A DNA stretch of 35,152 nucleotides from Sulfitobacter sp. HI0040 (lineage in GTDB: Bacteria > Pseudomonadota > Alphaproteobacteria > Rhodobacterales > Rhodobacteraceae), in contig NZ_LWEX01000019.1 of assembly GCF_001634885.1 (NCBI RefSeq), positions 1 through 35,152 on the forward strand. Direction: 5' to 3'. The position numbers and the translations under genes are program-made. A model generated the notes under the pieces. The model worked only from the letters and a program-made list of their open reading frames with translations. It did not search any database and was not told the origin of the DNA. Of the stretch, positions 4,612-22,573 are shown one piece after another; within the stretch, counting starts at the first letter, position 1, and each line of letters opens with the position of its first letter.

Positions 4612-5340
4612 TTAACCTATGCAGGGGGCAGCGGTTGTGGTGATCCCTTCCAACTGGGCGAGGACCGTTGCCGTGGTCTCCTGCCGGGTTTGCAGCTTCA
4701 GATAGGACGCGATCGCATCGAACCTTTGCTGATCCATGCCGGTGGCAACGATCATGTGGCCAACGCCATCATCCGTGGACCATGCCGCGATCTCCTCCCC
4801 GTTGGCGCGGGCCTCGCGGCTCTGATCGAATGAGCCTCGAAAATAGGAAAGTCGGCAACCATTAAGCCCGGCGTAATGGGCGATGCTGCCCTCTTCTGTC
4901 TCCTTGAAGGTAACGGGCGTCAGGTTCGCCGCGGATAGATCCGGGGTATTCACATCCGACAGCGCCGAGACGGAGCGCATGTCATTGCCCTCTACTGAGT
5001 AGGTCTGGCTGGCGAATTCCGCATGCAGATCGAAAACGCTCGGTTCAGCCAGGAACCTCGGTCCGAGCATCGCCGCTATTGCGATGGTTGCCGCCAATAT
5101 CCCGGCTGTCAGCCAGATCACCGGCCGCCGATTGTTGTTCGCGGGGGCGGCCGCCTGCACCGGCGCCGCCGGACGGAGGGAGCCGAGGCTTTTTGATATC
5201 CCGGCGATGTCGTTCAGAGCCGCATCAAGCGACGGCTCTGCCTTCAGGCGGCGCTCGACCGCGCGGCGCTCCGCCTTGCCCAGTTCACCGTCGTGATAGG
5301 CGTTGATCAGTTCCCAGTCTTTTTCGTTCAGCTCGGTCAT
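4612..5340 (-). CDS. Membrane anti-sigma factor
   Basis: A 242-residue protein with the layout of an anti-sigma factor. A short cytosolic helical domain (LINAYHDGELGKAERRAVERRL, in parts 11-32) resembles the RsiW/ChrR-like anti-sigma domain. An Ala/Pro linker, one membrane span at about 73-93 and a periplasmic domain of about 145 residues follow. The zinc-finger HxxxCxxC motif of many anti-sigma factors is absent, so this is a zinc-independent type. Its ATG overlaps the stop of the ECF sigma gene (ATGA at 5337-5340), which supports pairing with that sigma factor. The periplasmic part probably senses an envelope or oxidative signal, which is unknown here. Confidence 0.85.
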   Translation of the reverse strand: MTELNEKDWELINAYHDGELGKAERRAVERRLKAEPSLDAALNDIAGISKSLGSLRPAAPVQAAAPANNNRRPVIWLTAGILAATIAIAAMLGPRFLAEPSVFDLHAEFASQTYSVEGNDMRSVSALSDVNTPDLSAANLTPVTFKETEEGSIAHYAGLNGCRLSYFRGSFDQSREARANGEEIAAWSTDDGVGHMIVATGMDQQRFDAIASYLKLQTRQETTATVLAQLEGITTTAAPCIG

Positions 5341-5840
5341 CTGCTTTGCTTCTTCTCGTCTTCGCTCGTTCGCGATCCTTCCACCAGGATCAAAAGCGCC
5401 TTGCGCGCCCGGCTTATGCGGCTCATCACGGTTCCGTTCGCCACTTCCATCACCTTCGCGGCCTCCGCGTATTTCAGCCCCATGATATCCACGAGGAAGA
5501 GAACCTCCCGCATATCGGTTGACAGTTTTTCAAAGGCCAAACGAACCAGAACGTCCCGGGCGGCGTCGGTCGTGGCCGTCTCTTCAGATAGACGTTTCTC
5601 GGCGGCAAAATATTCCCTGCGGACACGTTTTTTCCGCAGCTCGTCGTAATGCAGGTTGCGAATGACCCGGAACATCCAGGGCCGAAGCGCATCGGGGCCA
5701 TCGGGCCTGCTCTCGCTCCTGAGCGCCCGTTCCACGGCGTCCTGCACCAGATCCTCGGCATCACTGGCAGAGGCGCAGATAGCCTTTGCATAGGCCCGAA
5801 ACTCGGGCAGCAAATGTTCGATATGCATGGGCGAAGGCAT
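5337..5840 (-). CDS. ECF-family RNA polymerase sigma factor
   Basis: A 167-residue extracytoplasmic-function sigma-70 factor. Region 2 is visible as FRAYAKAICASASDAEDLVQDAVERAL with the core-binding and -10 reading segment WMFRVIRNLHYDELRKKR. Region 4 is the helix-turn-helix around LKYAEAAKVMEVANGTVMSRISRARKAL (quoted motif broken by my reading; it spans the last third). The start at 5838-5840 (MPSPMHIEHLL) fits the family; a second ATG four codons downstream is also possible, and the longer frame to 5951 lacks homology. No convincing ribosome site precedes either ATG. Its stop overlaps the anti-sigma start, so the two are probably co-translated and autoregulated. Confidence 0.9.
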   Translation of the reverse strand: MPSPMHIEHLLPEFRAYAKAICASASDAEDLVQDAVERALRSESRPDGPDALRPWMFRVIRNLHYDELRKKRVRREYFAAEKRLSEETATTDAARDVLVRLAFEKLSTDMREVLFLVDIMGLKYAEAAKVMEVANGTVMSRISRARKALLILVEGSRTSEDEKKQSR

Positions 5841-5967
5841 GCCGAAAGATACTGAGATTTCAGGCTTCCGCAAACGGTGATCGCGGGTGAGAGAAAAGGG
5901 AGCCGGGATGTAGGTTCGGCTGTGCCATTCGCGTCTATCGACATGCGGCACAATATCACCATTCTGG

Positions 5968-6041
5968 CGATCCCGGGAGGACTCGAACCCCCAACATCCT
6001 GATTAGAAGTCAGGTGCTCTATCCAGTTGAGCTACGGGACC
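5968..6041 (-). tRNA. tRNA-Arg (anticodon UCU)
   Basis: The reverse strand folds into a full cloverleaf of 74 nt. The acceptor GGTCCCG pairs with CGGGATC, with G as discriminator. The D arm is GCTC/GAGC and the anticodon stem CCTGA/TCAGG carries the loop CTTCTAA. The T arm has TTCGAGT. The anticodon TCT reads AGA codons. No CCA is encoded. It sits 47 bases downstream of the UdgX gene on the same strand. Confidence 0.95.
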
Positions 6042-6088
6042 GTGATGCCTTGTTAGCGCCTTGCCATAGGGGACGCAACGGTTGGTGG

Positions 6089-7576
6089 TTACTGGCCCGG
6101 GCCATCTGCGGTGATTGAGGTTGCGGTGTCTGCTTCGAGTGCACTGACCATGGCGGCCACGGTGCGCAGGTCTTCGCGGAAGCGGGCCGTTTCGGCATCG
6201 CGGCTCGCGTCGGATGCCTGCCGCAGCAGAAAGGCCGGGTGCACGGTTATGAAGACCGGAATACCGGCGGTGCCCTGTTCGACCGTGCCGCGCCTGCGGG
6301 TGATATTCTTGCCGTTTCCCGTCAGCGCCAAGGCAGCCGTCGCGCCGAGGGCGATCAGGAGTTTGGGTTTCACCTGTGCGATTTCCCTGTCCAGCCACCA
6401 GCGGCAGTGATTCACCTCGCTCGTGTTCGGGCTTTGATGGATGCGCCGTTTGCCACGCGGCTGGAATTTGAAGTGTTTGACCGCATTGGTGACATAGGTC
6501 GCCTGACGGTTCAGCCCCACCTCCCGCGCTACCGCGTCGAAGGCTTGCCCCGCAGGGCCGATGAAAGGGCGACCGGCGAGGTCTTCCTTGTCGCCCGGTT
6601 GTTCGCCCACGATCATCAATGTGGCGTCTTCGGGCCCCGCGCCGGGGACCACCTGCGTCGCATTCTCATAGAGCGGGCACAGGCTGCAGCCCTTCATCTG
6701 GGCAGTGAGCGCATTCAGGCTGTCCGCCGGAGGGGTGCTTTCCGCCGATGCCTCTGGAAGCCGGTGAAGAATGCGTTCTGCGCGGAGAGGGGGAAGGGTG
6801 GGTGCGCTTTCCTGGATCTGCCGCATGCGGTTTTCCGCGTCTGCGATGAGGCCGGGGATCAGTGCCGCTTCCGGCAGGTTCTTCCAGTATTTTTTTGGCA
6901 TCTCGGCCTGCATCGCCTTGGTTTTCAGACGCGCCGGATTGAAGATGTTGGCGTAGTAGGTGCGCCACAATTCCTCGGTTTCGTCTTCGAGCGACAGGGG
7001 CGCACTGGGGATCGCTCTTTGCTCCAACACGCCATTCCTGAGAGTTGTGGTGACTTCCGGCGTCACGATGGCCCAGTCCATGTCTGAAAACCGCCGGCTG
7101 AAAAAACCCGCCACAAGTTCCTCGATCCTGTGATCCGGTTCGAACCACGACAGGAACTGTCGCCGGCCCGTATTTTCCCCCGGCACCTTTCGGAAACGCA
7201 CGAAAGCTTTCATCTTGTGCATGTCGCGGCGGATGTTCTTGGCGATTTCTTCGGCCCGCTGAACATCCGCATCGGCACGGTTGGATAGCAGCCGGGGTTC
7301 CGACGAAAGGCGAAGCAGCAGCCGGTAGAGCAGGAAAAAAACACCGGGTTCACGGCTCGCACAGACTTGGCGCGCGAGATCGGGGAAGGACTTGGGTACG
7401 TTCAGCACTGCATCTGGTCGCGGTGTCGGCGGCGCGGCCCCGCCGAAAAGACCGGGCGCCTCGCCTTCAAGGGTCCACTCCACCTCCTCAGCACGCGCAC
7501 CGCCCAGGGCGAGGGTGCGGGCATGGTTGCGCCAGGCATCGAAGGTTCCGAGGCGCGGCAGCTCGACCCGGTACAT
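6089..7576 (-). CDS. DUF4130 - UdgX-type uracil-DNA glycosylase fusion
   Basis: A 495-residue two-domain protein. Residues 1 to about 260 are a DUF4130-type domain (the 'radical SAM-linked' DNA metabolism family). Residues about 285-480 are a family 4-like uracil-DNA glycosylase of the UdgX branch. In the glycosylase I see the CSLC pair (297, 300) and Cys391 as likely iron-sulfur ligands, motif GEQPGDKED (324-332), the UdgX signature KRRIH with His380, and HPAFLLR (446-452). UdgX enzymes are known to excise uracil and remain covalently joined to the DNA through the signature histidine. The gene overlaps its radical SAM partner by one base (TGATG). The pairing is a known repair cassette; here it sits behind an SOS box. 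Confidence 0.93.
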   Translation of the reverse strand: MYRVELPRLGTFDAWRNHARTLALGGARAEEVEWTLEGEAPGLFGGAAPPTPRPDAVLNVPKSFPDLARQVCASREPGVFFLLYRLLLRLSSEPRLLSNRADADVQRAEEIAKNIRRDMHKMKAFVRFRKVPGENTGRRQFLSWFEPDHRIEELVAGFFSRRFSDMDWAIVTPEVTTTLRNGVLEQRAIPSAPLSLEDETEELWRTYYANIFNPARLKTKAMQAEMPKKYWKNLPEAALIPGLIADAENRMRQIQESAPTLPPLRAERILHRLPEASAESTPPADSLNALTAQMKGCSLCPLYENATQVVPGAGPEDATLMIVGEQPGDKEDLAGRPFIGPAGQAFDAVAREVGLNRQATYVTNAVKHFKFQPRGKRRIHQSPNTSEVNHCRWWLDREIAQVKPKLLIALGATAALALTGNGKNITRRRGTVEQGTAGIPVFITVHPAFLLRQASDASRDAETARFREDLRTVAAMVSALEADTATSITADGPGQ

Positions 7577-8802
7577 CAGAAAAGCTGAAGCTGTTCAGGC
7601 GGCGGGGCGAAACGTGCCCGGAGGTTCGCGGTATCCGTCAGCCTGCCGGGGTGCCAGTCACGCGTGCTGATGAAGGGTTTGGCTTTCTTGACCAAGGCAC
7701 CCAGCCGCCGCAGGTCATCATATCCCAGCGAGCCGCTCCGACGGGCGGCGAGGATACGGGAAACCGATTTCGTGCCGAGGCCCGGCACCCGCAGCAGCAG
7801 ATCACGGGAGGCGGTGTTCACATCGACGGGAAAGCTCCCCCGGTTGGCGAGCGCCCACGCCAGTTTCGGGTCGATATCCAGATCGAGCATGCCCGAACCG
7901 GCGTCCGGGGCGATTTCAGCAGCGTCGAAGCCGTAGAACCGCAAAAGCCAATCCGCCTGATAGAGCCTGTGTTCCCGCGCGAGGGGCGGCTTGATCAGCG
8001 GCAGTTTCGCCGTGCTGTCGGGGATGGGCGAAAACGCGGAATAATACACCCGCTTCAGCTTGTAGGACGAATAGAGGCGGATAGAGCTTTGCAAAATGGT
8101 TCGGTCGTCGGCCCCGTCGGCGCCCACGATCAACTGGGTCGACTGCCCGGCGGGGGCGAATTTCGGGGCGCGCTTTCCGGTGTGGGATGTCTCTTTCGCC
8201 TCTTCCTTGCGCAGGCGGACATTGCTCATGGCGCGGCGGATCTCATCCGGGTTCTTTTCAGGCGCATAGGTCTTGATGCCTGCATCCGTCGGCAATTCGA
8301 TGTTCATCGACAGCCGGTCGGCCAGCAGGCCTGCTTCCTCGATCAATTCGGGGGATGCGTCGGGGATGGTCTTGAGGTGGATGTAGCCGCGGAAATTATG
8401 CGTCTGACGCAGCTCCCGCGCGATGCGCACCATGTCCGACATCGTCTGGTCCGGCGATCGGATGATGCCAGAGGACAGAAACAGCCCCTCGATATAGTTG
8501 CGGCGATAGAATTCGGTGGTGAGATGGACGACTTCCTCCACCGAGAAGCGGGCGCGTTCGACGTTGGATGACACCCTGTTCACGCAATAGGCGCAATCAT
8601 AGATGCAGAAGTTCGTCATCAGGATTTTCAGCAGACTGATGCAGCGACCGTCCGGCGCATAGGCGTGGCAGATGCCTGAGCCTTCGGTGCTACCGAGGCC
8701 CTTGCCATCTGCGCTATTGCGTTTCGTCGTGCCGGATGATGCGCAGCTTGCGTCATACTTTGCGGCATCGCTCAACAGGGCGAGCTTTTGTTGAAGGTTC
8801 AT
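7576..8802 (-). CDS. Putative DNA modification/repair radical SAM protein with HhH domain
   Basis: A 408-residue radical SAM enzyme distantly related to spore photoproduct lyase and usually paired with UdgX. The opening LALLSDAAKYDASCASSG is typical of the family. The [4Fe-4S] SAM motif is CIYDCAYC (Cys66, Cys70, Cys73). The C-terminal third has a helix-hairpin-helix DNA-binding segment (VNTASRDLLLRVPGLGTKSV) and ends in EQLQLF. The likely role is repair of an as yet unidentified DNA lesion. I chose the ATG at 8800-8802 because MNLQQKLALLSDAAKYD matches family starts; another ATG three codons upstream (8811) is only two bases from the LexA box. Its stop overlaps the UdgX start. Confidence 0.92.
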   Translation of the reverse strand: MNLQQKLALLSDAAKYDASCASSGTTKRNSADGKGLGSTEGSGICHAYAPDGRCISLLKILMTNFCIYDCAYCVNRVSSNVERARFSVEEVVHLTTEFYRRNYIEGLFLSSGIIRSPDQTMSDMVRIARELRQTHNFRGYIHLKTIPDASPELIEEAGLLADRLSMNIELPTDAGIKTYAPEKNPDEIRRAMSNVRLRKEEAKETSHTGKRAPKFAPAGQSTQLIVGADGADDRTILQSSIRLYSSYKLKRVYYSAFSPIPDSTAKLPLIKPPLAREHRLYQADWLLRFYGFDAAEIAPDAGSGMLDLDIDPKLAWALANRGSFPVDVNTASRDLLLRVPGLGTKSVSRILAARRSGSLGYDDLRRLGALVKKAKPFISTRDWHPGRLTDTANLRARFAPPPEQLQLF

Positions 8803-8813
8803 TTTTCCCATGT

Positions 8814-8828
8814 GTTCATGATATGTTC
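8814..8828. promoter_or_regulatory. LexA (SOS) box GTTC-N7-GTTC
   Basis: GTTCATGATATGTTC is an exact match to the alphaproteobacterial LexA site GTTC-N7-GTTC. On the coding strand of the repair cassette it reads GAAC-N7-GAAC. It lies 11 bases upstream of the radical SAM start (8802), where a bound repressor would cover the promoter. The next gene on the other side (creA) starts 118 bases away, so it is less likely to be the target. Confidence 0.85.
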
Positions 8829-8946
8829 ACGAGTAGGCCTCGGCAACTCAGTCAGTTTGTCACAGTTTAAGTTTCTGCCGATTGTTGTACGCCCGGTTAA
8901 GCAGTGGGCGCGGGGAACCGGAAAGTGCAGGGCTGCGTTCAGCAAT

Positions 8947-22518: not shown

Positions 22519-22573
22519 TTTGTTCACCTCTTGTTCCAAAGGTTAACGCTGGCCCTGCCCCCGAAGTTCCCGC

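Follow-up and report, generated by a model that had tools for sequence, protein, structure and literature searches.

Does a short sequence that resembles a binding site for LexA, the repressor of the SOS response, place the two genes downstream of it under SOS control, and which parts of their products belong together? The site lies in a 35,152-nt stretch of the Sulfitobacter sp. HI0040 genome (contig NZ_LWEX01000019.1, positions 1 to 35,152; the whole stretch was analysed and is hereafter called the window). It stands upstream of a gene for a radical S-adenosylmethionine (SAM) enzyme with a helix-hairpin-helix (HhH) motif, which is followed by a gene encoding a DUF4130 domain fused to a UdgX-type uracil-DNA glycosylase (UDG) domain. 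As an earlier note made from the sequence alone had reported, GTTCATGATATGTTC is an exact GTTC-N7-GTTC match on the plus strand at 8814-8828; read in the direction of the gene (8828-8814) it becomes GAACATATCATGAAC. That note had further proposed that the radical SAM enzyme and UdgX form an SOS-induced pair. We conclude, at a probability of roughly 0.7, that the genes constitute a LexA-repressed, damage-inducible two-gene operon encoding a DNA-directed radical SAM enzyme and a DUF4130 partner, which in this organism also carries UdgX.

Conservation and exchange of the LexA-type box

The evidence that carries this conclusion is comparative. In named genomes, the 80 closest homologues (the best 80 of at least 569 relatives, which from record titles and taxonomy we take to be Rhodobacterales and Rhizobiales) all had an exact box within 300 bp upstream, and other spacings or scrambled words were found at 0 to 6 of the 80. 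With 27 same-family loci, which include the window's own, they formed a first set of 107, in which the box ran in the gene's direction at 101 loci and was inverted at four; the other two, L134 and L137, had one mismatch and no box, respectively. A second set of 92 further loci, obtained by even draws from the class and the phylum, yielded exact boxes at 8 of 8 same-family loci and at 54 of 55 loci from other Alphaproteobacteria. When named-genome and sampled-genome loci, which may share species, were pooled, an exact box in either direction was present near the start codon at 167 of 170 alphaproteobacterial (alpha) loci, the window copy included, and 50 shuffles gave a mean of 1.18 and a maximum of 4. 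The upstream regions with the box in the gene's direction were nearly all distinct (146 of 149). A box not conserved upstream of homologous pairs was what the earlier note had expected to overturn its proposal, and the outcome was the opposite. As for sampling, 26 of 149 genomes in the family set exceeded the family cut-off (L138, a second fragment in G147, and L139, a second, weak match in G051, were discarded), as did 84 of 398 genomes in the larger sampled set and 18 of 289 in the smaller one, with 15 and 13 genomes with weaker matches, respectively, left unused.

In other classes the motif changes. None of 29 loci from the same phylum (Pseudomonadota) and a different class had the exact alpha box. 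Near the start codon, 19 of the 29 had an exact CTGT-N8-ACAG (shuffle mean 0.04, maximum 1), which we take to be the gamma/beta LexA core, and 24 had CTG-N10-CAG (shuffle mean 1.18, maximum 3); the exact gamma-type box was found at a single one of the 170 alpha loci. One review describes an E. coli form close to CTGT-N8-ACAG and gives GTTC-N7-GTTC for Caulobacter (PMC9578287). Because the alpha box is found in alphas and CTGT-N8-ACAG elsewhere, the same gene appears to bear whichever LexA-type motif its group uses and, as read from these upstream regions, LexA control of the operon has outlasted at least one change of the LexA binding motif. Among plasmid copies, the one from Caballeronia has a gamma-type box, CTGTATAAAAATACAG, and in the one from Clostridia the gene is preceded by a small open reading frame (ORF) with two GAAC-N4-GTTC sites upstream of it.

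Taken by itself, the window box is not significant and so is no evidence of LexA control on its own: the window holds two exact boxes where 1.14 would be expected, and a count of two was also reached by 30 of 100 shuffles. The significance of the site comes from its position and conservation rather than from its frequency in the window, and it is the conservation across loci that rules out a chance match. Over the whole genome, 128 exact sites were counted against 68 for the reversed control, an excess that fits an active alpha-type SOS regulon above a high background. Both recA (568 bits) and lexA of the source genome share the exact alpha box upstream, the latter identified as a fragment at a contig edge that scores below its cut-off (66.7 bits against 110.95; positions 4-97 only). 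The second exact GTTC-N7-GTTC in the window, at 22522-22536, lies in a gap flanked by two ORFs, each at least 150 aa long and with its 3' end towards the site, and is probably a chance match. Judged from the comparison of loci, LexA (SOS) control of the operon is strongly supported.

The box also has a characteristic place relative to the gene. Its end is separated by 2 nt from the first ATG of the radical SAM gene (8811); the spacing of 11 bases given in the earlier note is true only to the second ATG, at 8802. In a profile of 98 distinct box-aligned upstream regions, information was concentrated in the box, in a TTG at -18, in a hexamer within the N7 spacer and around the start codon, the hexamer being TATMRT-like and 17 nt after the TTG-type element. 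The TTG stood at -18 before the box in 63 and at -16 in 25 of 146 distinct alpha upstream regions. The first in-frame start codon was 2-3 nt past the box, as in the window, at 93 of 149 loci; 62 of these 93 had the TTG at -18, and in 45 a TANNNT ended exactly 6 nt ahead of that codon. This layout suggests a leaderless message, with transcription starting at the ATG and LexA sitting on the -10 element.

The constant partner and the radical SAM enzyme

The assignments of both genes in the earlier note agree with profile scores above the curated cut-offs, the HhH profile (HHH_3) falling just under its own. The radical SAM ORF scored 578 bits against TIGR03916 (cut-off 343.5) and has the CX3CX2C cysteines. 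The partner ORF scored 183.8 bits against TIGR03915 (cut-off 112.25) and 310.9 bits against TIGR03914 (cut-off 189.95), the UdgX family; it has the KRRxH loop, seen as KRRIH in the sequence and the alignment just as the note had said, the GEQPG motif A, and HPAFLLR. The reported overlap of the two genes also holds, base 7576 being common to the radical SAM stop and the partner ATG.

The constant partner of the radical SAM gene is DUF4130, and UdgX is an optional C-terminal domain. A complete partner ORF with DUF4130 only was found at 16 of 170 alpha loci and at 18 of the 29 loci of other classes, and 31 of these 34 (15 of 16 and 16 of 18, respectively) retain a LexA box. A UDG region follows DUF4130 at 147 alpha loci and 11 others; for the alpha loci, no partner was detected at three and the partner was incomplete or unclear at four. 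Five of 177 candidate partner ORFs were excluded because they did not resemble the reference copy. When nine DUF4130-only partners were run against NCBIfam, all nine matched TIGR03915 alone, including one Clostridia and one Acinetobacter record. Of the proposed SOS-induced radical SAM-UdgX pair, then, LexA control gains comparative support, and the choice of UdgX as functional partner is not supported in the form proposed. Where UdgX is present it is well preserved: the cross-linking histidine of KRRxH was kept in all 96 displayed of 97 aligned copies in the first set and in 60 of 61 in the second, one being gapped. The 33 sequences of alignment A2 were the window's own and 32 representatives, chosen from 36 by omitting the four longest (L199, L204, L223, L233). 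A structural model of the partner (mean predicted local distance difference test score, pLDDT, 88.7; predicted template modelling score 0.59) returned mostly uracil-DNA glycosylase types among the 50 matches listed, and nothing recognisable for DUF4130.

In the radical SAM protein, six cysteines were invariant across 45 diverse sequences, C69, C73 and C76 of the CX3CX2C site and an N-terminal triad, C23, C48 and C57. The model had a mean pLDDT of 83.8, falling to about 40 over residues 21-50, and its nearest folds among the 50 matches listed were HydE, HydG, MgmA, TsrM, MiaB, biotin synthase and lipoyl synthase, with query template modelling (TM) scores of 0.33-0.44. Several of these enzymes carry an auxiliary cluster. 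The C-terminal part gave weak sequence matches in the PDB that included the HhH proteins ComEA and RuvA. We infer a DNA-directed radical SAM enzyme, probably with an auxiliary cluster, and action on some kind of damaged base, as the earlier note had supposed, is plausible.

Switching by LexA and RecA and cross-linking by UdgX are general properties of these families, and the operon would work along the following lines. LexA bound to the GAAC-N7-GAAC operator would cover the -10 element and block RNA polymerase directly; upon DNA damage, RecA-triggered cleavage of LexA would release the promoter, and both proteins would be made together, start and stop overlapping. The first protein would combine a [4Fe-4S]-SAM barrel, the HhH motif and a cysteine triad that probably binds an auxiliary cluster, and would be expected to act by radical chemistry on a base or nucleotide that is damaged. 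DUF4130, as the constant partner, would probably recognise the lesion or complete the reaction, and in the source lineage the UdgX part may remove uracil and covalently cap the resulting abasic (AP) site. The further proposal, that radical SAM/DUF4130 is a core SOS repair enzyme reversing or rewriting a DNA lesion by auxiliary-cluster radical chemistry unlike that of spore photoproduct lyase (SPL), with UdgX joined to it later to cap uracil or AP sites met at the same lesions, is tentative, and we rate its odds as somewhat short of even. The features are collected below.

Features of the operon and its upstream region in the window
Feature	Position	Strand	Basis
LexA operator (SOS box), GAAC-N7-GAAC in the gene's direction	8814..8828	none	Exact match; conservation in alpha loci
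Probable -35, TTGCCG	8841..8846	-	17 nt before -10; sequence and offset counts
Probable -10, TATCAT, inside the box N7	8818..8823	-	Ends 6 nt before ATG; sequence, aligned-upstream profile, spacing counts
Radical SAM/HhH gene, TIGR03916, 411 aa	7576..8811	-	NCBIfam 578 bits; Pfam Radical_SAM aa 64-199, HHH_3 aa 329-359
CX3CX2C (C69, C73, C76), radical SAM [4Fe-4S] site	8584..8607	-	No variation in 45-sequence alignment
N-terminal Cys triad (C23, C48, C57), candidate auxiliary metal/Fe-S site	8641..8745	-	Invariant in 45-sequence alignment; low-confidence model region
Helix-hairpin-helix motif, aa 329-359	7735..7827	-	Pfam HHH_3 26.9 bits (cut-off 27); weak ComEA/RuvA PDB sequence matches
DUF4130-UdgX fusion gene, 495 aa	6089..7576	-	ORF, NCBIfam, Pfam; start overlaps radical SAM stop by 1 nt
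DUF4130 domain, aa 80-236, constant partner	6869..7339	-	Pfam 139 bits; TIGR03915; DUF4130-only partners at other loci
UDG-fold UdgX domain, aa 311-471	6164..6646	-	Pfam UDG; PDB UdgX 6iod E 7.8e-48; M. smegmatis UdgX ~45% identity to model
KRRIH, histidine cross-linking to AP-DNA in UdgX	6437..6451	-	Sequence, alignment; function from PMC10359453

Directly downstream of the operon is a tRNA-Arg gene (tct; 5965-6041, minus strand), overlapped by a 131-aa ORF (6003-6398) that looks artefactual. Beyond it, on the same strand (4612-5951), are ORFs that by eye resemble an ECF sigma factor (5337-5951) and an anti-sigma factor (4612-5340).

Exceptions and alternative explanations

Several observations weigh against a LexA-repressed operon of the layout described. 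In the first set, L134 has its mismatch and L137 has no box, the latter a frameshifted copy below the cut-off in a genome 73% complete, which was counted as a miss and left out of alignment A1. Genomes G345, G498 and G761 have no exact box; in G761 a gamma-like box with one mismatch precedes the lexA match, and by eye nothing better than a two-mismatch version can be made out at the operon. The copies from Acetoanaerobium, Acinetobacter and Gemmatirosa matched no motif that was tried, and among these motifs the Parabacteroides copy had only a GGA-N5-TCC at -211, which is of chance grade. The f184 genus (3 genomes; L200, L201, L205) is a true exception to the shared LexA motif: TTAGTAGTAATACTACTAA precedes lexA, nothing similar precedes the operon, and no 7- or 8-mer is shared by all six upstream regions, three of the operon and three of lexA. 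Its operon has instead a palindrome with the core TCTCAT-N3-ATGAGA, which was rejected as an alternative regulon box since it occurs, in all three genomes, at a single place, at the operon, and is missing upstream of lexA. As for the promoter, of the 93 loci that share the layout seen in the window only the 45 already mentioned have TANNNT at exactly 6 nt, and another 27, whose start codon lies 5-7 nt past the box (the 20 named ones being Rhizobium-type), do not fit at all; 19 TANNNT matches in these 27 stand 9-11 nt before the start, where a short leader is possible. Lastly, pLDDT in the region of the cysteine triad is near 40, so that the model does not capture the proposed auxiliary cluster.

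Could the box be kept merely as a conserved -10 region, with LexA uninvolved? It does overlap the apparent -10, and GTTC-N7-GTTC is not rare in the source genome. However, both GAAC halves are conserved outside the -10, and the operator can be displaced from it: 10 loci (L062, L075, L084, L085 and L095, all Paracoccus, and L127, L131, L142, L178 and L213) have the box shifted upstream, away from the radical SAM gene, by about one 11-bp repeat, and 7 of these keep a TANNNT 6-7 nt before the start; the box is inverted at 17 loci, 6 of which do so. Because shifted and inverted boxes stand beside -10-like hexamers, the operator is not retained simply as part of the -10, and with its replacement by the CTGT-N8-ACAG type in other classes we give this explanation hardly any credence. 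The distribution of the genes raises the separate thought that they form an anti-phage defence or mobile-element module and not housekeeping repair. The radical SAM gene occurs in 158 plasmid records (Phaeobacter 58, with P. inhibens among the carriers, Paracoccus 15, Azospirillum 11, Leisingera 10). It is also present in 10 entries of the phage collection, including two of 240 kb from Acinetobacter, and a copy on a viral contig (L253, 61% identity) has an exact alpha box at 2984-2998, ending 2 nt before the start. Such carriage, and the patchy occurrence within the family (26 of 149 genomes), would suit a mobile module, whereas LexA-type boxes are retained across classes and PADLOC models matched neither protein (0 families at E ≤ 0.01), which rules against a defence system and leaves this idea very unlikely.

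The remaining alternatives concern the chemistry. The functional unit could be the radical SAM enzyme with UdgX specifically, the former making or releasing the UdgX-DNA adduct; the frequency of the UDG region behind DUF4130, at 147 of 170 alpha and 11 of 29 other loci, and the near-complete retention of the cross-linking histidine would be expected if so. The 34 loci with a complete DUF4130-only partner, 31 of them still with a LexA box, argue otherwise, as does the scarcity of UdgX elsewhere in such genomes: of 26 searched (for 26 of the 34 loci), UdgX exceeded the family cut-off in two, and the other 24 had weaker UDG-type matches only (15) or none (9). We consider this unit unlikely. It is similarly improbable that the enzyme is a SplB-like photoproduct lyase that directly reverses a UV-induced thymine lesion. 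Its HhH motif and its regulation do tie it to DNA, but six invariant cysteines, including the N-terminal triad, do not match the SPL pattern, and a SplB-like fold was rejected because spore photoproduct lyase appeared neither in the 50 fold matches listed out of 85 (E ≤ 0.001) nor in the 23 weak PDB sequence matches. The LexA-repressed operon of a DNA-directed radical SAM enzyme with a DUF4130 partner accordingly remains our preferred interpretation.

Known relatives and significance

The closest known system is a linked set of NCBIfam families, TIGR03916, TIGR03915 and TIGR03914, named putative DNA modification/repair radical SAM protein, TIGR03915 family putative DNA repair protein and UdgX family uracil-DNA binding protein. 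With the window proteins over all three curated cut-offs, the family content is identical; annotated plasmid records have the radical SAM gene followed by TIGR03915, and the window copy is the fused DUF4130-UdgX form. The radical SAM/HhH family of the window gene is presumably also that of COG4277. A two-gene COG1573-COG4277 "UDG base excision repair" system is described in PMC8565304 as SOS-regulated in Bacteroidetes and as earlier reported likewise for Verrucomicrobia and Alphaproteobacteria. The likeness lies in a UDG gene and a second gene under LexA. The difference is that the paper reads the pair as a uracil glycosylase system, whereas the window data make DUF4130, not UDG, the constant partner; neither DUF4130 nor TIGR03915 is mentioned in its main text.

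Two single proteins also invite comparison. UdgX of M. smegmatis (PDB 6ail, 6iod) shares with the window domain the UDG fold, about 45% identity, a sequence match, and the two motifs KRRIH and GEQPG, which are given in PMC10359453; it is a chain of about 205-230 aa, whereas in the window UdgX forms the C-terminal part of a fusion with DUF4130, encoded in an SOS-type operon. That source reports that UdgX excises uracil and stays covalently bound, proposes that it shields AP sites, and calls its precise physiological role largely unknown. SplB differs from the window enzyme, which has an HhH motif and a cysteine pattern unlike that of SPL. It too is a radical SAM enzyme tied to DNA repair, and is SOS-regulated in some bacteria according to PMC8565304.

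Taking PMC3765255 together with PMC8565304 and the NCBIfam names, the pairing and its SOS control were already in print in outline. Our literature search returned no paper on TIGR03915 or on UdgX with a radical SAM enzyme, and only PMC8565304 on COG4277; the literature found, which does not cover the two earlier sources of PMC8565304, contained nothing on optional UdgX, on the operator-on-promoter layout or on a change of LexA motif at this operon. What this analysis adds is the breadth, the promoter-operator layout, the optional UdgX and the invariant N-terminal cysteine triad, the link and the SOS control being known in outline. The compact operator-promoter suits a clean reporter test, and naming DUF4130 rather than UdgX as the partner directs biochemistry to the right pair. 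SOS regulons reveal proteins that are called up after DNA damage, and the persistence of control through a switch of LexA motif speaks for a genuine damage-response system here.

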